Shown: one piece after another, positions 2,345-43,697 of the stretch | Layout of the letters: each line of letters starts with the position of its first letter | Position numbering within the stretch: the stretch's first letter is position 1 | DNA from: a virus | IMG/VR virus record: IMGVR_UViG_3300036853_000321 | Coordinates: 1-46,375 of that record | Length of the DNA stretch: 46,375 nucleotides | Reading direction: 5' to 3' (one strand) | Made by a program: the position numbers and the translations under genes | The notes under the pieces: model-generated | Seen by the model: only the letters and a program-made list of their open reading frames with translations | What the model was told of the DNA's origin: nothing | Databases searched by the model: none

Positions 2345-2410
2345 GCCGTGACGTGCGATTTATCCCTAGCCTAATCACGGACTTCTCAAATAGATGATTT
2401 AAGAAGTCCG
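2345..2410. promoter_or_regulatory. Divergent control region with hairpin
   Basis: Between the divergent genes starting at 2257 and 2471 there is an interrupted dyad: CGGACTTCT (2378-2386) pairs with AGAAGTCCG (2402-2410), extended by AAAT/ATTT around a 5-base loop with one mismatch. The patch is clearly more AT-rich than its surroundings. A loose minus-strand promoter (TTGAGA, then GATAAA about 19 bases later) overlaps the dyad, so an operator is plausible. No other gene is visible in 2258-2470. Confidence 0.4.
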
Positions 2411-2435: not shown

Positions 2436-2470
2436 GGGGACTCAGCAACTCACACGAAAGGTTCTCCCCC

Positions 2471-2563
2471 ATGCTCGATTACGCTCTTTTCGCTACTCTC
2501 GCTGTCTCGGCGGTAACGTTCCTCTACGGCGTCTGCGGCGCGCTTAGCGTGTGCCGCAAGTGA
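2471..2563 (+). CDS. Tiny single-span membrane protein (30 aa)
   Basis: The product is a 30-residue peptide beginning MLDYALFATLAVSAVTFLYG and ending VCRK. Residues 5-27 form one hydrophobic segment with small and aromatic residues, and the basic tail suggests the C-terminus stays in the cytoplasm. The ATG is preceded by AAAGG nine bases upstream. Its stop overlaps the GTG of a second tiny membrane gene by four bases, starting a chain of four coupled genes. I do not recognise it. Size and hydrophobicity would fit a membrane-active or anchor peptide, but no role can be assigned. Confidence 0.6.
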   Translation: MLDYALFATLAVSAVTFLYGVCGALSVCRK

Positions 2564-2652
2564 CTACCGTCCTCGGCTTTCTCGCCGGTTTCGGTCTCGG
2601 TAGCGTCGTCACGGCACTTGTGCTGGCCATCAACGCGTTGGTGAGCAAGTGA
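2560..2652 (+). CDS. Tiny single-span membrane protein (30 aa), second of chain
   Basis: This GTG-started gene encodes 30 residues (MTTVLGFLAGFGLGSVVTAL, then VLAINALVSK). The glycine- and alanine-rich hydrophobic stretch spans residues 4-27, with a single C-terminal lysine. GTGA overlaps join it to the genes on both sides, so translation probably depends on the upstream gene. The overall pattern (short Thr N-terminus, one span, Lys end) repeats that of its neighbours although the sequences differ. Coding is inferred from the unbroken overlap chain and the shared architecture; function is unknown. Confidence 0.6.
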   Translation: MTTVLGFLAGFGLGSVVTALVLAINALVSK

Positions 2653-2744
2653 CCCGTCTTGTCCTGTGTCTACTCGGTCTCTGCGCGACCATGGGCGCGA
2701 TTCAGGTTGGCGCGACGTTCGCCATCATGGCGGCGCTCAAGTGA
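2649..2744 (+). CDS. Tiny single-span membrane protein (31 aa), third of chain
   Basis: This GTG-started gene encodes 31 residues (MTRLVLCLLGLCATMGAIQV, then GATFAIMAALK). It is hydrophobic along nearly its whole length, with two cysteines near residues 7 and 12 and a terminal lysine. The stop overlaps the GTG of the larger Cys-rich gene by four bases. It is the third peptide in a row with the same size and topology. It might form oligomers or anchor the downstream product, but this is speculation; the sequence shows only the membrane-span architecture and the coupling. Confidence 0.6.
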   Translation: MTRLVLCLLGLCATMGAIQVGATFAIMAALK

Positions 2745-3601
2745 AAGGCCCCAACGGTTTCGTGGCCTATGAAGGCCCGTCGACACTCGACGGCGCGCCG
2801 ATCGTTGTGATTGTCACGGGCCTCAACCGTCCGTCGAAAAACGGGAAAACAGGCGCCATGCTCCAGTCTTACATCCTCCGTTCGGACGTCCATCCGTCGG
2901 AGGCACTCAAGTCCGGCGAGGACGTCTCAATCTGCGGCGGATGCACGATGCGGCCAACGCTCATGCCGGACTATCGCGCCGGAGCCAAGTCCGGTTACAC
3001 ACGCATCGTCCGTCGATGCTACGTCCGGATGGAGTCGGTCGGCTCCGTGTGGCGCTGCTACAAAGCGGGTAACTACCCGCGCCTCACGAACGGATCCTAC
3101 GCGTGGTTCAAAGGGAACGGATGGATCGGCACGCGGAACGTCGACTTGATGGAGGGGAAAATTTTGCGACTCGGCACGTACGGTGATCCTGCCGCCGCGC
3201 CTCTCGACGTGTGGGCGCCTCTCGTGGCCGCCGCCAAGTCGCACACGGGTTACACTCACCAATGGCGCCTGCCGCACGTCGCGCCTTACGCCTCCATTCT
3301 CATGGCCAGCGCGGACAGCGCCGCCGACCGTGCCGATGCGAACGCGGCAGGTTGGCGGACGTTCCGTGTGCTCACCGCGACGGACGCGGGCAATGAGGCG
3401 CTGGGCGCGCGTGAGATCAGTTGCCCGGCCTCCAAAGAAGCGGGCAAGGTCGCGACGTGCGAAACCTGCCGCCTGTGCGCGGGAACGTCGCGTCCGGCTA
3501 AGGACATCGCGATCATTGACCACTCGTCCTCCGCGCTGGGCGCGCGCCGCCGCAGCCTCAAGCTGCAAGTGATTCAGGCGGCCGCCGCCGCCGCGGCCTA
3601 A
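2741..3601 (+). CDS. Phage Cys-rich protein resembling the DUF7227 family
   Basis: This 286-residue protein has the features I recall for a widespread phage family of unknown function (DUF7227): an early nucleotide- or metal-site-like segment NRPSKNGKTGAMLQSYILR, a CGGC pair, CYVRM, VWRCYKAGNY, LRLGTYGDPAA, TGYTHQWR, GWRTFRV, and a C-terminal CPAS, then TCETCRLCAG. The repeated cysteines suggest metal or Fe-S binding. The true start is the GTG at 2741, which overlaps the third membrane peptide by GTGA; the open frame further upstream belongs to other genes. Lysine is coded by AAA about as often as AAG, unlike most of the phage. Family name is from memory; function is unknown. Confidence 0.7.
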   Translation: MKGPNGFVAYEGPSTLDGAPIVVIVTGLNRPSKNGKTGAMLQSYILRSDVHPSEALKSGEDVSICGGCTMRPTLMPDYRAGAKSGYTRIVRRCYVRMESVGSVWRCYKAGNYPRLTNGSYAWFKGNGWIGTRNVDLMEGKILRLGTYGDPAAAPLDVWAPLVAAAKSHTGYTHQWRLPHVAPYASILMASADSAADRADANAAGWRTFRVLTATDAGNEALGAREISCPASKEAGKVATCETCRLCAGTSRPAKDIAIIDHSSSALGARRRSLKLQVIQAAAAAAA

Positions 3602-4754: not shown

Positions 4755-5222
4755 TCACGCGACCGGCGGGGCGTTACGTGCCCCCAGCCAGGTCAGCCAG
4801 TCCGCGGTGGCCATCGGCCCGTGCTCGAGGTGGGCCGGGCTGAAGGGCGGTAACTGCACATGTGGGCGCTCGAACGACAGCGTCTGTAGCCCCTCGGCGT
4901 TGGCCATCGCCGACATCCTCGCCCACATGCCGTGCTCCGGTTCGTCCCAGGTCCAGGCGTTACCGACCCGGAACACGAGGTCGACCGCCAGCCCGTACTG
5001 GTGAGCGGACTCGTACGCCCGCGCCCGGGTCACGGTCCTCCCGTAGTCGAGGCCGAGGGGGTCGCGGCCCCGCTCGTACAGGATGCTCTGGCGCATGGGG
5101 CTCCTCGCGGTCTCGAACACCGACAGCGGGATGCCCGCGGCGGCCAGCTGGGCCATGAGGGCGAGGAGCCGGGGGAGGAACCGGCGGTCGAGCCACTCCA
5201 GCCGCGTGATCCTGTCGCTCAC
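4755..5222 (-). CDS. Endolysin: M15-family (L-Ala-D-Glu type) peptidase
   Basis: This 155-residue enzyme has the M15C zinc peptidase signature: S72-x-H74-x2-G-x-A-x-D81 (SAHQYGLAVD) and a distal H121 in FERPHVQ, the three metal ligands of the VanY/T5-endolysin-like fold. An Arg-containing FETARSPMRQ segment precedes them, as in the family. It probably cleaves peptidoglycan stem peptides for host lysis. It lacks a signal peptide, so it needs a holin; the gene just upstream encodes a membrane protein that may be that holin. The GTG at 5222 overlaps the upstream stop by GTGA. It is the last gene of the 10464-to-4755 run. Confidence 0.85.
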   Translation of the reverse strand: MSDRITRLEWLDRRFLPRLLALMAQLAAAGIPLSVFETARSPMRQSILYERGRDPLGLDYGRTVTRARAYESAHQYGLAVDLVFRVGNAWTWDEPEHGMWARMSAMANAEGLQTLSFERPHVQLPPFSPAHLEHGPMATADWLTWLGARNAPPVA

Positions 5223-5509
5223 CCTCCGCCGCCCACCACCTGGACCGGCACCACCCGGGTGATGGTCGCCGTCGCCGCCTCGATCTGCGCGACCTTCACC
5301 TTCGACCGGGACATGGAGTACCCGATGCTGGCGCCGGCGGAGGCCACGGCCAGCGCCGCCTCCACCCAGGTGGGCGGGACGACCACGCCAAACACGCCCA
5401 GCACCATCACCGCGGGCGTGATGAGGTGGGCCCAGAACTCCGAGGTCCACCACCCCGGCCTCACCGGCACGGTCGAGGGGGGCGGGGGCATCATGGGGTC
5501 GGTGGACAT
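5219..5509 (-). CDS. Holin-like membrane protein
   Basis: This 96-residue protein has a proline-rich N-terminus (MSTDPMMPPPPSTVP), then two close hydrophobic segments: about residues 22-45 (FWAHLITPAVMVLGVFGVVV) and 48-65 (VEAALAVASAGASIGYS). A basic turn (MSRSKVK) and a variable tail follow. This layout, and its position immediately before the M15 endolysin with a GTGA overlap, fit a phage holin, which would form the membrane lesions that release the endolysin. The start at 5509 has an AAAGAGAG site upstream. Identity as holin is inferred from context and topology. Confidence 0.6.
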   Translation of the reverse strand: MSTDPMMPPPPSTVPVRPGWWTSEFWAHLITPAVMVLGVFGVVVPPTWVEAALAVASAGASIGYSMSRSKVKVAQIEAATATITRVVPVQVVGGGG

Positions 5510-5829
5510 GGCTCGGCTCTCTTTCTCGCGGCGGTTTGCTGCAGGTACTGCTGGTGGAGCTGGTCGTGGACGTGGCAGAGGTACTTCGACCGCGTGGGCC
5601 GCGGGCACTTGATGCAGAGCTCGGCCTTCGCCCGCTTACGCCGCCACTTCCTCGCGCTGGTGGCGGCGGCCTGCTTGCGCCACTTGCAGGTGCGGACCCG
5701 GCGGAGGTAGGCCACCCGCTCCCGGTGCTCCCGGCACCACGGCGTGTCCTCGTCGAGCGGGCGCACACACGCGGTGGAGTACACACACTGTCCCGCCAGC
5801 TTGCGGGCCAGGTACGTCGCGCGTGTCAC
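5491..5829 (-). CDS. Basic protein with two Cys/His zinc motifs
   Basis: This 112-residue, Arg/Lys-rich protein has two similar metal-site motifs: CVYSTACVRPLDEDTPWCREH (spaced C-x5-C-x10-C-x2-H) near residues 15-36, and CIKCPRPTRSKYLCHVH near 70-86. Between them is a strongly basic helix. The duplicated Cys-Cys-Cys-His arrangement resembles small zinc fingers in phage nucleic-acid-binding proteins, and a DNA- or RNA-binding role is plausible. The GTG at 5829 gives a GTGA overlap with the helicase-loader-like gene upstream; its 3' end overlaps the holin-like gene by 19 bases. I do not know a named family. Confidence 0.6.
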   Translation of the reverse strand: MTRATYLARKLAGQCVYSTACVRPLDEDTPWCREHRERVAYLRRVRTCKWRKQAAATSARKWRRKRAKAELCIKCPRPTRSKYLCHVHDQLHQQYLQQTAARKRAEPCPPTP

Positions 5830-6452: not shown

Positions 6453-7182
6453 CGCGTCCTCCTCGCTCCATGAACCGCCGCACGGCATCCGCGCTGCGCG
6501 CCTCCTGGGCCGACAGCAGCGGGGCCTGCGATCGCTCGTCCTCCCAGCGCCTCTGGTTCAGGTACGTGGTCGGGTGCGGGATGTACGCGCCGCCCTCGCC
6601 GACCCACTCCGGGCTCTTCGTCTGCCAGGCCAGCGCCGCCAGGACCGTGGCCAGCTCGGGCTTCGCGCTCGCCCAGGCCAGCGCCGCCTCCAGCTTCTTG
6701 ACCTTGCGGGGGTAGGCCGCCCAGAACACCAGGAAGTCCCCGCTGTACGCCGCCTCGACCTGGCGCCGCTTGGCCAGGGCCGCCCGGCTCATGGAATTAC
6801 AACTCCTGATCCTGAGCTTCGAAGGGATCAGACCGGCCGGATCAGGCTCAGACCGGAACAGATCCAGAGATCCGGATAGAACCCCCCCTACCCCCCCATC
6901 AACCAGTAGGGTCGAATCGTCAACTAATAGGGTCGATTGTCGATTACCAGGGTCGTTTGACCCTGGTGATAGGGTCGTTGACCCTGGTGATTGATGGAGG
7001 TCGCTACTACCAGCAGGGCCGGCGGCCCCATTAGCAGGGTCAATAACCCTGGTCACCTTCTCGTCCGTGAGCCAGCGGGTGCCGCACTTGTAGCACCTTC
7101 GCCTACGCTCGATGACGTTGCCCACGGTGGGCCGGCTGTCGGTCACCGAGTTGCCCCTGGAACTGCAGCGCGGGCAGTTCAC
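6433..7182 (-). CDS. Replication initiator-like protein with N-terminal zinc ribbon
   Basis: This is a 249-residue protein. Residues 1-45 form a four-Cys ribbon (C3-x2-C6 and C30-x2-C33, with VTDSRPTVGNVIERRRRC) that closely resembles the NrdR-type zinc ribbon. A low-complexity middle (STLLVDDSTLLVDGG) is encoded by the iterons. The C-terminal part, FLVFWAAYPRKVKKLEAALA, then WVGEGGAYIPHPTTYLNQRR, matches the typical C-terminus of phage replication initiator (O-like) proteins. The GTG at 7182 overlaps queE by GTGA. Like lambda gene O, it seems to contain its own origin. Initiator identity rests on the C-terminal pattern and the iterons. Confidence 0.65.
   Translation of the reverse strand: MNCPRCSSRGNSVTDSRPTVGNVIERRRRCYKCGTRWLTDEKVTRVIDPANGAAGPAGSSDLHQSPGSTTLSPGSNDPGNRQSTLLVDDSTLLVDGGVGGVLSGSLDLFRSEPDPAGLIPSKLRIRSCNSMSRAALAKRRQVEAAYSGDFLVFWAAYPRKVKKLEAALAWASAKPELATVLAALAWQTKSPEWVGEGGAYIPHPTTYLNQRRWEDERSQAPLLSAQEARSADAVRRFMERGGRDAFSTK
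6905..7057. repeat. Iteron block, putative replication origin
   Basis: AGGGTCG starts at 6908, 6929, 6949 and 6971, i.e. every 20-22 bases, with a fifth related unit at 7036. The last three are dyads: CCAGGGTC-GTTT-GACCCTGG (6947-6966), AGGGTC-GTT-GACCCT (6971-6985) and AGGGT-CAATA-ACCCT (7036-7050). The block is more AT-rich than its surroundings and lies inside the initiator gene. A homopyrimidine run is found at 6881-6900. Confidence 0.65.
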
Positions 7183-7814
7183 TTGACCCCCCAGGTCCGG
7201 TGCGCCTGGGTGGACAGCGCCCACCTCGCCCCGGCGCTGCCGGTGGCCAGCAGGCCGATCACCTCGGACAGGTTGTTGGTGCCGTCCAGCGCCGTCATCG
7301 GCTGGAGGTATCGGTGGAAGAACGTGGTCTCGCGGTCGAGCGCCGTGATCTCCTGCCAGCCCCAGCCGGGCCGCACCACCACCTTGAGCGTGTGCCCGGT
7401 GCGCTGGGGGTAGTTGAGCTCCTTGGGGCTCACCGTCAGCCAGTCGACGGGGCAGCCCTCGATGGCGCGCACCCCGCTGGTCTCCAGGTGGACGCGCATG
7501 CCGTAGGAGTGCAGGAGGTCCACGAGCGGCACGAGGTCGTGGTCGGTCGGCTCCCCCCCGGTGATGACCGCTATCCCGCTGGCCGCCATCTGCCAGGCCC
7601 GGCGGGCGAGGTCAGCTGCGGTCACCCGCTCGGTCATCTTCCACGGCGCCTCGTCGCACTCCTTGCGGATGGCGCAGCCGCTGACCGAGCAGCCGGCAAG
7701 GCGGATGAACACCATTGGATAGCCCACGAAGTGCCCCTCGCCCTGCAGGCTCTTGAACACGGCCGAGACGGGGTAGGCGTACGCCTGGGCGGCGCCGATG
7801 ATGTCGTCGCTCAT
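7179..7814 (-). CDS. queE: QueE-like 7-carboxy-7-deazaguanine synthase (radical SAM)
   Basis: This is a 211-residue protein. SAVFKSLQGEGHFVGYPMVF and IRLAGC form the typical QueE N-terminus; TGGEP (85-89) is the radical-SAM glycine motif, and HLETSG and DWLTVSPKE (to residue 132) are family hallmarks. QueE rearranges carboxy-tetrahydropterin to 7-carboxy-7-deazaguanine, using S-adenosylmethionine and a 4Fe-4S cluster. The cluster cysteines are spaced C42-x4-C47-x5-C53 rather than the canonical CX3CX2C, which is odd. ATGA overlap with the DpdA-like gene and GTGA overlap with the initiator place it in one operon. No queC, queD or folE is present, so earlier substrates must come from the host. 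Confidence 0.8.
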   Translation of the reverse strand: MSDDIIGAAQAYAYPVSAVFKSLQGEGHFVGYPMVFIRLAGCSVSGCAIRKECDEAPWKMTERVTAADLARRAWQMAASGIAVITGGEPTDHDLVPLVDLLHSYGMRVHLETSGVRAIEGCPVDWLTVSPKELNYPQRTGHTLKVVVRPGWGWQEITALDRETTFFHRYLQPMTALDGTNNLSEVIGLLATGSAGARWALSTQAHRTWGVK

Positions 7815-8404
7815 GTGGTCGCCTCGAGGAACGAGCGGAGCTGCGCCCGCTGCTTGCGGTGGAACCAGCCGCTGCCGTCGACCGAGACGGCGCCAGCTCG
7901 CTCGCACATGGCCAGCCGGTCGGGCCCGCTCACCCGCCCGACGTGGACGCGCCCCGGGAACCTCGCGCACCAGGGCTGGACCGCCGCCAGCTTGAACTGC
8001 GTTGAGCCGCCGATGAACAGCATGCACTCGTCGTCGGGGACGTCGTCGAAGGTCATCCCGTCCTGGCAGACGAACGCCGGCCGGAACCCGCGGGCCACCA
8101 CCTCGCCGCGGTACTGGTGCCAGGACTCGATGGTCCGGTCACGCAGCATCATCACGTCGGGCACCGCGGCCCACACCGGCTGGGTGCCGGACCTGGCCGC
8201 CCAGTCCAGCAGCTTCATCCAGGGGGCGGGGTCGAACTCGACGTTGCGCTGCCAGCACCCGTAGGCGCCGTTGTCGAGGGCGTAGGGCAGGAAGGGGAAG
8301 GGCCCGCGCTGGCCACCTGGGGAGTAGAGGTGGCCGAGGCGGCCGACGTGGCGCCCGGCCATGTAGCCGAACTCCATGCTGGTGTGGTTCGAGACCATGA
8401 CCAT
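7811..8404 (-). CDS. dpdA: DpdA-like 7-deazaguanine DNA transglycosylase
   Basis: This is a 197-residue protein. Motifs LDNGAYGCW, PDVMM, FVCQDGMTFDDVP, CMLFIGGSTQFKL and HVGRVSGPDRLAMC followed by AGAVSVDGSGW match my recollection of phage DpdA proteins, relatives of tRNA-guanine transglycosylase that exchange guanine in DNA for a 7-deazaguanine base. The neighbouring queE gives strong contextual support. It starts at the ATG at 8404 in a TGATG overlap with the methyltransferase gene and ends with an ATGA overlap into queE. It is shorter than bacterial DpdA, as phage forms tend to be. It could in principle be a different TGT-fold enzyme, but the pairing argues for DNA modification. Confidence 0.7.
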   Translation of the reverse strand: MVMVSNHTSMEFGYMAGRHVGRLGHLYSPGGQRGPFPFLPYALDNGAYGCWQRNVEFDPAPWMKLLDWAARSGTQPVWAAVPDVMMLRDRTIESWHQYRGEVVARGFRPAFVCQDGMTFDDVPDDECMLFIGGSTQFKLAAVQPWCARFPGRVHVGRVSGPDRLAMCERAGAVSVDGSGWFHRKQRAQLRSFLEATT

Positions 8405-9432
8405 CACGTGCGTTGCCTGACGCCTCGGGCCAGCTGCTCGACCAGGGTCACGAAGGCGAACGCCGCACACTGCGGGACCGCGGCGTTGCCGAGGAGGCGA
8501 AGTTGCGCGGGTCGTGAAGTACGTCTGTCCATCCATCGGGAAACCCCATAAGGCACTCGACGAACCGCGGGTTCAGGACCATCCCACTCCCCGATGCGGT
8601 CGGGGCCTGGCGGGAAACGGTGGACGTACCCCGCGTCGCCGCGTCCGTCAGCGAGACCCCCGGCTTCGCCTTCGACCCGGGGAGGTTGCGCGACCCCGAG
8701 CTGCGCCCGTCCCCCGCCGTCGGGGTGGGCCAGCGCCTGGCCATCGTCCGCGCCACCTCTTCCTCCAGGTCCCCGTGGCCGCCGTTCGCCTGCCTGGCGT
8801 GCGAAGTCCCGCTCACCGTTCCCGGGTACGTCTTGACCGTTCGTCCTGCCCGCTCTGCCCGCGGCGTCGGCCACATCGAGCGCGCGACTCTCTCCGGAAG
8901 CGAGTCGTCTCCCGCCGGTCTGCGGTCGAGGTCGCGACAGCCCTTCCAGTCCCGGGCGAGTGGTGTAGGCCAGGAGGAAGAGTCGGTTGCGTCGGTGGGG
9001 AGCACCGACCTGGGCCGCGGAGAACAGACCCCACTCCGCATCGAACCCGAGACGGGCAAGGTCGGCCAGCACGTCACGCAGTCCGCTCGTCCGCAACCCT
9101 GGCACGTTCTCGACGAACACGGCGCGGGGGCAGAGAACCGCAACGACTCTTGCGAACTCGGGCCAGAGCCAGCGCGCGTCCGCGGTGCCCTGCTTCTTGC
9201 CGGCAACGCTGTGGGGCTGGCAGGGAAAGCCCCCGCAGATGAGGTCCACAGCTGGAGCTGCACCATCGATGTCCCTCACGTCCTCGTAGCAAGGCACCTC
9301 GGGCCAGTGGTGGCGCAGCACCGCGCGCGCCGCCGGGTCCTTCTCGCAGAACCACCGCGTGGGCCCGTGGCCCAGGGACTCCATCGCACGCTCGAGGCCG
9401 CCCACCCCGGAGAACAGACTCCCGACGGTCAC
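8404..9432 (-). CDS. Cytosine-5 DNA methyltransferase (Dcm-like)
   Basis: This is a 342-residue protein. Motif I is TVGSLFSGVGGLERA, motif IV GGFPCQPHS with catalytic C71, motif VI FVENVPGL (108-112), motif VIII QVGAPHRRNR (141-150), and motif X LLGNAAVPQ near 313-321. It should transfer a methyl group from S-adenosylmethionine to C5 of cytosine in a specific sequence, protecting phage DNA. The GTG at 9432 overlaps the upstream stop by GTGA. The target-recognition part (roughly 8530-9010) is also open in a second frame that itself reads like the recognition domain of other phage methyltransferases. No partner endonuclease gene is visible. Confidence 0.85.
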   Translation of the reverse strand: MTVGSLFSGVGGLERAMESLGHGPTRWFCEKDPAARAVLRHHWPEVPCYEDVRDIDGAAPAVDLICGGFPCQPHSVAGKKQGTADARWLWPEFARVVAVLCPRAVFVENVPGLRTSGLRDVLADLARLGFDAEWGLFSAAQVGAPHRRNRLFLLAYTTRPGLEGLSRPRPQTGGRRLASGESRALDVADAAGRAGRTNGQDVPGNGERDFARQAGERRPRGPGGRGGADDGQALAHPDGGGRAQLGVAQPPRVEGEAGGLADGRGDAGYVHRFPPGPDRIGEWDGPEPAVRRVPYGVSRWMDRRTSRPAQLRLLGNAAVPQCAAFAFVTLVEQLARGVRQRT

Positions 9433-9863
9433 GCCGCCACCCGCTGCGCCTGCACCTTGGGCGAGGTGCGGATGCGCTCCGCGGTGGCCACGAGCTCGGG
9501 CCGGCGAGACATGGCCGTGAGCGACTGCAGGACCGTGGCGTGGGACCGGCGCAGGTGCCGGCCGATTGACTTGAGGGTGTACCCCGCGTCCCGCAGCACC
9601 CGCATGGCCACCCACCGGGCGTGGACGAGCTCCTTCTCCCGGCGGCGGCCGACCAGCCCAGGCCGCGTGACCTCCATGGCCACGCAGGTGGCCGCCAGGA
9701 TGGCGCGCGCGAACGGGTCGAGGTCGTGGGACCGGCGCTGCTCCTGCCGGTCCCGCTCGAGGACCGCCCACATCGCGTCCTCGTAGTTCTCCGTGTCGAG
9801 GAAGACCGCCCAGAACAGCCGCAGCCGCTCCCGCACCCGCTCCCTGCCGGCGGCGACGGTCAT
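9429..9863 (-). CDS. DnaA domain IV-like DNA-binding protein
   Basis: This is a 144-residue protein. Residues about 80-115 (ARWVAMRVLRDAGYTLKSIG, then RHLRRSHATVLQSL) reproduce the helix-turn-helix of DnaA domain IV, where RQIAMYL and GGRDHTTVLHA normally stand. The ATPase domains of DnaA are absent. It may bind DnaA-box-like sites to regulate replication or transcription; such truncated forms occur in phages. The ATG at 9863 has GGGGAGG six bases upstream and an ATGA overlap with the preceding gene; the stop overlaps the methyltransferase by GTGA. DNA binding is well supported, the function is not. Confidence 0.65.
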   Translation of the reverse strand: MTVAAGRERVRERLRLFWAVFLDTENYEDAMWAVLERDRQEQRRSHDLDPFARAILAATCVAMEVTRPGLVGRRREKELVHARWVAMRVLRDAGYTLKSIGRHLRRSHATVLQSLTAMSRRPELVATAERIRTSPKVQAQRVAA

Positions 9864-34122: not shown

Positions 34123-34692
34123 TTACGTTACGGGCTTTACGAGGTGCATCCCCCGGCCGGCGTCGTCGGCCACGAATACAATCTTCATCAGCTGCTCGGG
34201 CCCCCACAGGCGGGTGTCGAGGTCGAAGCTGCCGCGGATGTCCCGCACGTTCAGCAAGAGGACGTCCTCCATGCTCCGCACCGTCCCGCCGGTGAACCAG
34301 TGGACCGGGGTTTCCTCGCCGCTGTATTTGCCCCACTTCACGATGTCCCCGATCAGGACGCCGTGGGAGCGCATCCAGTCCCGCGCCGTGCAGCCAGCCT
34401 TGAGCAGCAGCCCCAGGTTGATCACCTTCTGGTGGGCGATGGTGCGCCCCTCGTCCACGTCCAGGGTGTGGTCGGGGATCACGATGCCGCCCTCGGTCTT
34501 CTGCTCCTTGGCCTGGAGGCGGTAGACCATGACGTCGTCATCTGTCGGCTGAAACGGGATCTCGGGCAGCCGCAGCTCGCGCGTGCGCGTCGCCAGCAGC
34601 AACGACGACAGCTGCTCCAACTCCTCCCAGCGTGCGAACTCTTGCTTGGTGTACGCCGCCGTCGGCACGAAGTACTCGCCCAGTTCGCTCAT
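34123..34692 (-). CDS. GroES-like co-chaperonin
   Basis: This is a 189-residue protein. Residues 54-75 (VMVYRLQAKEQKTEGGIVIP) contain the GroES mobile loop with the hydrophobic triad IVI at 70-72 that docks on GroEL. VLIGDIVKWGKYSGEE (112-127) and MEDVLLLNVRDI (141-152) match the VKVGDxVLxGKYxGxE and EDDILAV core of Cpn10. It is longer than the usual ~95 residues, with an N-terminal extension and an insert after the mobile loop. It could replace host GroES so that GroEL folds a phage capsid component, as T4 gp31 does. ATGA overlap with the gene upstream. Confidence 0.75.
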   Translation of the reverse strand: MSELGEYFVPTAAYTKQEFARWEELEQLSSLLLATRTRELRLPEIPFQPTDDDVMVYRLQAKEQKTEGGIVIPDHTLDVDEGRTIAHQKVINLGLLLKAGCTARDWMRSHGVLIGDIVKWGKYSGEETPVHWFTGGTVRSMEDVLLLNVRDIRGSFDLDTRLWGPEQLMKIVFVADDAGRGMHLVKPVT

Positions 34693-42265: not shown

Positions 42266-42504
42266 GGAAGCCGGCGCTGCGGGAGGGGTCCGACGAGGAC
42301 ACGGTGAGGATCGACCGCCACGTCGACGCCATGATCGTGTGGCTCAAGTCCCGCGCGCTCCAGCCTGGCGATGCCCTGGAGGTGATGCTCAATGCGCTCC
42401 TGCGGATCCACGGCCACCAGCACGAGCAGGGGCAGGACGCGCTGGAAGACGCGCTGGAAGACGCGGTGAAACTCATGAGACAGCGACGACAGGGGGACGC
42501 GTGA
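42262..42504 (+). CDS. Small helical protein
   Basis: This 80-residue, GTG-started protein is helical and acidic in the middle, with DALEDALEDAVK encoded by a short DNA repeat (near 42437-42460). RIDRHVDAMIVWLKSRALQP and ALEVMLNALLRIHGHQHEQG are the main helices. It precedes the DGQHR protein with a GTGA overlap, so it may be its partner. No family is recognised. Confidence 0.6.
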   Translation: MRKPALREGSDEDTVRIDRHVDAMIVWLKSRALQPGDALEVMLNALLRIHGHQHEQGQDALEDALEDAVKLMRQRRQGDA

Positions 42505-43487
42505 GCAACGTAATCAAGATGCCGGGCACAAGAGACCTCCCCAGGAACCGGAAGGCCGCCGCCTCGCGGATGGACACGGTTCTCGTCACCCCCTCGGCGG
42601 TCAAGGCGTGGAAGGATCCGCCCTTCCAGCGGCCGTTGCGGGTGAACGACAAGGTGAGGCACCTCGCCGAGGAACTGAAGGGGAACGGCGGCATCATCCC
42701 CGGTGTCCTGACCCTCGGGGAACTCGGCCGGGAGACCTACCTCGTGGACGGGCAGCACCGCAAGGAGGCGTTCCTCATGTCGGGGCTCGCGGAGGGCATC
42801 GTGGATGTCCGCATTTGCACCTTCGTCGACATGGCGGAGATGGGGGAGGAGTTCGTGATCTTGCAGTCGAGTCTGGTGCGCATGCGGCCCGATGACATCC
42901 TGCGGGGCCTGGAAGCGACGCTGCAGCCGCTGGTGGAACTGCGCAAGCGGTGCCCGTTCATCGGCTACGACCAGATCCGACGCTGCACCAACTCCCCGGT
43001 GGTGTCCATGTCCTCTGCCATCCGCTGCTGGGTGGGCTCGGCCAATGAAGTGCCGGCCGCCGGCGGCGACTCGGTGACGGCACTGGCCCGTGACCTCACC
43101 CAGGACGACGCCGACCACATGATCCAGTTCTTCAACTCGATGGCCGCTGCCTGGGGGCGCGATCAGGAGTACTGGCGCCTGTGGTCGAACATCAACGTCA
43201 CCATCGTGGCCTGGCTGTGGCGGCGCACGGTGCTTTCCCAGTACTCGCAGAAGTCGGTGCGCCTCACGGTCGCGCAGTTCATCGAGTGCGCGATGAGCCT
43301 GTCCGCTGATGGGGGCTACCTCTCCTGGCTTGTCGGCCGCCAGCTCTCTGACCGCGACCGCTCGCCCGCTTACGCCAGGATCAAGTCGATCTTCGCGGCC
43401 AGGGTGAAGGAGCGGACGGGCAAGCCTGCCGTGTTCCCCGCGCCGCCCTGGTCTTCGTCGCACCATGCGCCGAAGAGCGTGAATTGA
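42501..43487 (+). CDS. DGQHR/ParB-like domain protein
   Basis: This is a 328-residue protein. Residues 35-130 have the ParB/sulfiredoxin-like fold pattern with the DGQHR motif at 83-87 (ETYLVDGQHRKEAFLMSGLA), then CTFVDMAEMGEEFVILQSSL. This motif is shared by ParB-like NTPases and by DndB/DpdB-type proteins of DNA-modification systems. The rest is helical. It may act on DNA with CTP or ATP. Because the phage also carries queE and a dpdA-like gene, a DpdB-like role should be considered, though a regulatory ParB-like role is equally open. GTG start with GTGA overlap. Confidence 0.65.
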   Translation: MSNVIKMPGTRDLPRNRKAAASRMDTVLVTPSAVKAWKDPPFQRPLRVNDKVRHLAEELKGNGGIIPGVLTLGELGRETYLVDGQHRKEAFLMSGLAEGIVDVRICTFVDMAEMGEEFVILQSSLVRMRPDDILRGLEATLQPLVELRKRCPFIGYDQIRRCTNSPVVSMSSAIRCWVGSANEVPAAGGDSVTALARDLTQDDADHMIQFFNSMAAAWGRDQEYWRLWSNINVTIVAWLWRRTVLSQYSQKSVRLTVAQFIECAMSLSADGGYLSWLVGRQLSDRDRSPAYARIKSIFAARVKERTGKPAVFPAPPWSSSHHAPKSVN

Positions 43488-43508: not shown

Positions 43509-43697
43509 ATGTCGTTGCTGTGGCTGATCGTGGTGATTCTGCTGGTGCTGTGGGCGGCGGGGAACTGGGCCCCAGGCTCGCCGGTGCGGGGCAACAACCT
43601 CGTCCACGTCCTGCTGGTGATCGTGGTGATCATCGTGCTCTACAACCTGCTGGTGGGCGGCGGGCTGCACATGGGCGGCGGCATCCACTTCCGGTGA
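43509..43697 (+). CDS. Two-span small membrane protein (DUF5670/lmo0937-like)
   Basis: This is a 62-residue protein. The first hydrophobic segment is LLWLIVVILLVLWAAGNW (3-20), then a short loop with PGSPVRGNNL, then VHVLLVIVVIIVLYNLLVGG, ending in a Gly/His tail (LHMGGGIHFR). The spacing resembles the small membrane families lmo0937/DUF5670 and DUF3309, found in bacterial chromosomes. GAGGAGGACC precedes the ATG. Its role is unknown; a host-membrane effect is possible. Confidence 0.65.
   Translation: MSLLWLIVVILLVLWAAGNWAPGSPVRGNNLVHVLLVIVVIIVLYNLLVGGGLHMGGGIHFR

Follow-up and report, generated by a model that had tools for sequence, protein, structure and literature searches.

The window, by which we mean the whole stretch of DNA analysed here, is a 46,375-bp virus record with a GC content of 68% and with most genes on the minus strand. 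Divergent from a small minus-strand gene (1901-2320), a chain of three tiny ORFs on the plus strand leads into the gene of a 286-residue Cys-rich protein (Table 1). The GTG start of peptide 2 overlaps the stop of peptide 1, that of peptide 3 the stop of peptide 2, and that of the 286-aa gene the stop of peptide 3. All three links are 4-nt GTGA overlaps, i.e. same-direction stop-start overlaps of the kind that defines translationally coupled overlapping genes, and because every such overlap shifts the frame, the chain uses all three frames. Checked base by base, the ORFs and overlaps agree with the original prediction of one-span peptides of 30, 30 and 31 codons with a Lys end, GTGA-linked to each other and to the 286-residue protein.

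Table 1. Features at the peptide locus and in the lysis region of the window
Feature	Position	Strand	Description
Palindrome	2379-2409		31 nt, GGACTTCTCAAATAGATGATTTAAGAAGTCC; intergenic, between minus-strand gene 1901-2320 (start 2320) and peptide 1
Shine-Dalgarno-like GAAAGG	2456-2461	+	~10 nt 5' of the peptide 1 ATG; from sequence and motif scan
Peptide 1	2471-2563	+	ATG start, 30 aa, MLDYALFATLAVSAVTFLYGVCGALSVCRK; single predicted membrane span, RK at C-terminus
Peptide 2	2560-2652	+	GTG start, 30 aa, MTTVLGFLAGFGLGSVVTALVLAINALVSK; single predicted membrane span, K at C-terminus
Peptide 3	2649-2744	+	GTG start, 31 aa, MTRLVLCLLGLCATMGAIQVGATFAIMAALK; single predicted membrane span, K at C-terminus
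286-aa Cys-rich protein, phrog_2554	2741-3601	+	GTG start overlapping the peptide 3 stop, no Shine-Dalgarno motif
Endolysin, L-alanyl-D-glutamate peptidase type	4755-5222	-	phrog lysis families, E 6e-10; PDB L-alanyl-D-glutamate peptidase, E 1.5e-6
Two-span membrane ORF, likely holin	5219-5608	-	Upstream of the endolysin and coupled to it by a stop-start overlap

In each successive frame a membrane-length hydrophobic segment stands exactly at the position of the ORF, with best 19-residue Kyte-Doolittle means of 1.95, 2.21 and 2.04 for peptides 1, 2 and 3, respectively. By length and by this one span, the peptides belong to the single-span membrane microproteins (up to 50 aa, one membrane-length hydrophobic span), their insertion being predicted. 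Their positive charges are mainly C-terminal, and peptides 2 and 3 carry small-xxx-small patterns (G6xxxG10xxxG14 and A17xxxG21xxxA25), whose spacing would permit helix packing. The repeated architecture noted earlier holds insofar as three one-span peptides stand in a row, but their sequences have no detectable relationship; a tandem duplication was considered as their source and rejected, since the pairwise scores were no better than those of shuffles (p 0.29-0.86).

Short open frames can arise by chance, and we simulated 600 order-2 Markov windows with the trinucleotide statistics of the window, counting hydrophobic chains on both strands; an order-1 null was also run. Chains with two links appeared in 2 of the 600 order-2 windows and chains with three links in none (0/600). 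A codon model trained on the larger genes of the same phage ranked the claimed frame best of six in all three stretches, with weak log-odds of +1.7, +4.5 and +4.0; it gave no synonymous-codon support for the peptide frames, and the modest signal comes from amino-acid choice. Homology searches with the peptides returned nothing convincing in Pfam and PHROGs (best E 0.24) and no match at E 10 by tblastn against 50,697 phage records. Queries with the terminase and the portal-like protein yielded one close match, a 4.8-kb fragment (L082) with 71-73% identity, and no close relatives were found via the other structural and neighbour proteins. The absence of peptide homologues and of close relatives and the weak codon signal would suit open frames that exist by chance in a GC-rich leader and are never translated. 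However, this reading is improbable: three consecutive hydrophobic GTGA-linked frames never occurred in the simulations, and the large gene would be left without any ribosome-site-like motif.

Indeed, a motif scan found no Shine-Dalgarno motif before peptide 2, peptide 3 or the 286-aa gene, and peptide 1 is the only member of the chain with one. The missing downstream motifs would fit a dependence on upstream translation. Overlaps of 4 nt are among the commonest spacings of co-directional prokaryotic genes and have been shown experimentally to couple translation by termination-reinitiation (PMC6728339, PMC10666635). GTGA or ATGA links also join at least five other gene pairs of this genome, three of them being GTGA links without a Shine-Dalgarno motif, so the GTGA links by themselves are ordinary. 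Since the chain goes beyond chance, the codon preference lies in the claimed frames and a ribosome-site motif stands at the first ORF only, the three ORFs probably represent genuine microprotein genes with coupled translation. To that extent the sequence bears out the original prediction that these are genuine membrane microprotein genes, missed by annotation and expressed through coupled translation.

Between the divergent minus-strand gene and peptide 1 lies the 31-nt palindrome, which has a single copy in the window and did not appear in any of 100 shuffles. Its region folds as a hairpin at 2378-2410, and the upstream region folds better than shuffles (z -2.4); the palindrome is a candidate operator or leader hairpin. 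No match to a sigma-70-type promoter was recognised. The fold and the hairpin would suit a translated leader that controls the large gene, in which ribosomes traverse the three frames and the peptides themselves matter little, as would the GTG of the large gene, which has no Shine-Dalgarno motif vs one in 55 of the 81 nonredundant homologues surveyed below. Yet a leader would need one frame only, not three membrane spans in successive frames, and a pure leader gives no reason for the hydrophobicity, so that we regard this explanation as unlikely.

The 286-aa protein belongs to phrog_2554, with a profile match of E 7.3e-63 between its residues 5-262 and profile positions 285-513 of 529. It had been called DUF7227-like, a description that stands loosely: its Pfam DUF7227 (PF23872) score of 15.6 bits lies below the cut-off of 27, and the firm family is phrog_2554. 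A distant relation to DUF7227 is likely because 25 of 33 aligned relatives match that family weakly (E <= 0.01, best 7.6e-6) and because two BFVD structures named DUF7227 match the model of the protein (E 1.6e-3 and 3.7e-3). Seven Cys are invariant in the alignment (65, 68, 93, 228, 240, 243 and 246), the conserved motifs of the family are GxYGDP, TGYTHQW, CPAS.E.G and CxxCxxC, and the window protein extends ~25 residues past the conserved part at its C-terminus. AlphaFold2 models the protein with confidence (pLDDT 87). We claim no fold for it, since there was no sequence match in the PDB, Foldseek with the model gave nothing significant (best E 0.55), and the best VIA-align hits (Z 2.9; radical SAM and TIM-barrel enzymes) were within noise. 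PADLOC gave no defence-system match.

The family was found in 148 phage records (mostly Mycobacterium, Klebsiella and Gordonia), six plasmids and more than 500 IMG/VR stretches. Where the context is annotated, its genes have many small hypothetical genes around them and frequently lie close to one end of the genome; they occupy accessory regions in Caulobacter S2B, LUZ100 and Fromanvirus. The LUZ100 copy is truncated: gp04 of this Pseudomonas phage (L094:726-989) matches only residues 5-55 of the window protein, with 61% identity. It is located in the early region, which its authors presume to serve host take-over (PMC10134795). The small ORFs before it were considered as counterparts of the peptides and rejected, as they are not membrane peptides.

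Is the peptide chain a common companion of phrog_2554 genes? To answer this question, we surveyed the neighbours of 81 nonredundant homologues with at most 54% identity to the window protein, the IMG/VR loci being represented by the best 80 per query out of more than 500. A chain of hydrophobic peptides overlapping the gene from upstream was found in the window only, and in no other of these homologues does even a single hydrophobic peptide overlap it from that side. The proposal of a membrane-associated system that includes the DUF7227-like protein is thus unsupported, and relatives that keep the large gene without the tiny frames, named at the outset as counter-evidence, do occur among these diverged homologues. 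The chain appears to have been added locally, in this lineage, rather than to represent a conserved new system.

Tiny one-span ORFs do, nevertheless, adjoin some of the homologues. The phrog_2554 gene of the L030/L046 group is followed by one or two ATGA-linked ORFs of 27-31 aa; L046 (4732-4907), and also L054, L056, L059 and L064, have two ATGA-chained one-span peptides of 31 and 27 aa directly 3' of it. The first ORF of this group (30-31 aa) is under clear purifying selection (pS 0.42 vs pN 0.11; Fisher p 3e-7 for the L046-L054 pair), so that comparable one-span ORFs beside homologues in other phages are genuine genes where selection can be measured, which favours the view that the window peptides are genuine too. 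Two further such ORFs lie downstream in L008 and one in L075, and one lies upstream in each of L079, L108 and L062. Together with the reported enrichment of short overlaps among subunits of heteromeric complexes (PMC10666635), these neighbours would fit a single membrane-associated complex, with subunit ratios set by the overlaps and with peptides that hold the Cys-rich protein at the membrane or regulate it there. However, most homologues have no tiny one-span neighbour, and the peptides that adjoin the gene in different lineages, on either side of it, have no convincing sequence relation. Counted over all loci, one-span ORFs have a density of 0.25 per kb close to the phrog_2554 gene (up to 150 nt away) and of 0.11 per kb on the rest of that strand, and these two values do not differ significantly (p = 0.06). 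The opposite strand has 0.02 per kb, and overall the sense strand of these loci exceeds the antisense strand about fivefold in such ORFs. We consider such a complex rather doubtful. As the density near the gene is barely above that elsewhere, tiny membrane peptide genes seem to be a general trait of these accessory regions, while a specific association with phrog_2554 may exist. A bolder version, which we hold to be distinctly unlikely, is that one-span microproteins without mutual relationship have been recruited time and again, on either side of the gene, as coupled membrane partners of phrog_2554 proteins. The latter would then be the soluble component of a widespread, so far overlooked membrane system of phages, and the window would show its most elaborate form.

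The terminase of the genome (phrog_979) is of a distantly T7/HMO-2011-like type, sharing ~30% identity with Roseobacter and HMO-2011 phages, and genes for an integrase, RecT, an exonuclease and a RusA-like resolvase are also present. On the minus strand, a QueE-like radical SAM protein (phrog_2076, E 2e-23) adjoins a phrog_15826 protein (E 9e-25) at 7179-9771, and a C-5 cytosine methylase domain (8404-9771) belongs to the same cluster, which is possibly one for DNA base modification. A minus-strand ORF at 34123-34692, between structural genes, matches phrog_3188, a family of GroES-like co-chaperonins of phages (E 3e-7). A plus-strand ORF for a 62-aa two-span DUF5670 protein (43509-43697; 24.8 bits, cut-off 23.5) lies close to a ParB-like gene (42339-43487). 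A perfect 16-nt repeat, CGGATCCGGATCCGGA, stands at the record start (1-16) and again 412 nt later (413-428).

Small size, a single span, C-terminal positive charge and glycines that may serve helix packing are also what a lysis module of the holin, antiholin or pinholin-like type could show. The three peptides, however, are not encoded with the endolysin, as the members of a holin or lysis cassette are; they lie on the opposite strand and are grouped with a non-lysis gene. A lysis role is very improbable, because the separate endolysin has its own coupled, holin-like two-span membrane partner.

We favour, at a probability of roughly 0.55, the explanation that the three microprotein genes and the phrog_2554 gene form a compact operon with coupled translation, whose peptides most likely act on the host inner membrane. 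In this temperate podophage-like genome, the operon would belong to the accessory, probably early, part, while the structural and lysis genes are encoded on the other strand. The single entry point for ribosomes would be the weak Shine-Dalgarno site of peptide 1; from there, termination and reinitiation at each GTGA overlap would carry them to peptide 2, peptide 3 and the large protein, a course that we infer from the presence of the overlaps and the absence of other ribosome sites. Such a chain would tie the output of the peptides and of the large protein together. The peptides are predicted to insert as single helices with the Lys/Arg C-terminus probably cytoplasmic, and they may associate via their small-xxx-small faces. 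Their hydrophobicity, strand and position suggest an early action on the host inner membrane; the most likely target would be this membrane or one of its proteins, and the purpose might be superinfection exclusion or the take-over of the host, for instance, rather than lysis. The large protein would be an independently mobile, widespread phage gene product that shares their transcript.

Single-span membrane microproteins of ~30 aa are, according to two articles (PMC7549839, PMC11364881), a well-described class that annotation often misses. The window peptides resemble bacterial and phage members such as E. coli YohP (27 aa) and small phage gene families in their length of ~30 aa and their one span, but differ from known single-span microproteins in that three of them follow one another, joined by exact stop-start overlaps and without sequence relation to the families searched. 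As in coupled pairs with 4-nt overlaps (PMC6728339, PMC10666635), the overlaps are of the RTGA type and the downstream starts have no Shine-Dalgarno motif; unlike in those pairs, the upstream partners have just 30-31 codons, and there are three of them. The 286-aa protein is homologous to other phrog_2554 proteins over residues 5-262 and shares their conserved motifs, whereas its coupling to upstream peptides and its C-terminal extension set it apart. The closest parallel in arrangement is the L046 group, whose one-span peptides are likewise overlap-linked to a phrog_2554 gene, through ATGA; these peptides, however, lie downstream of the gene and are unrelated in sequence to those of the window.

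In summary, the chain adds likely unannotated genes to this virus genome and offers an example of how short membrane peptides may be packed into accessory operons through stop-start overlap. If it is true that the peptides partner the phrog_2554 protein, this would be the first functional lead for a protein that occurs in phages of mycobacteria, Gordonia, Klebsiella, cyanobacteria and alphaproteobacteria.
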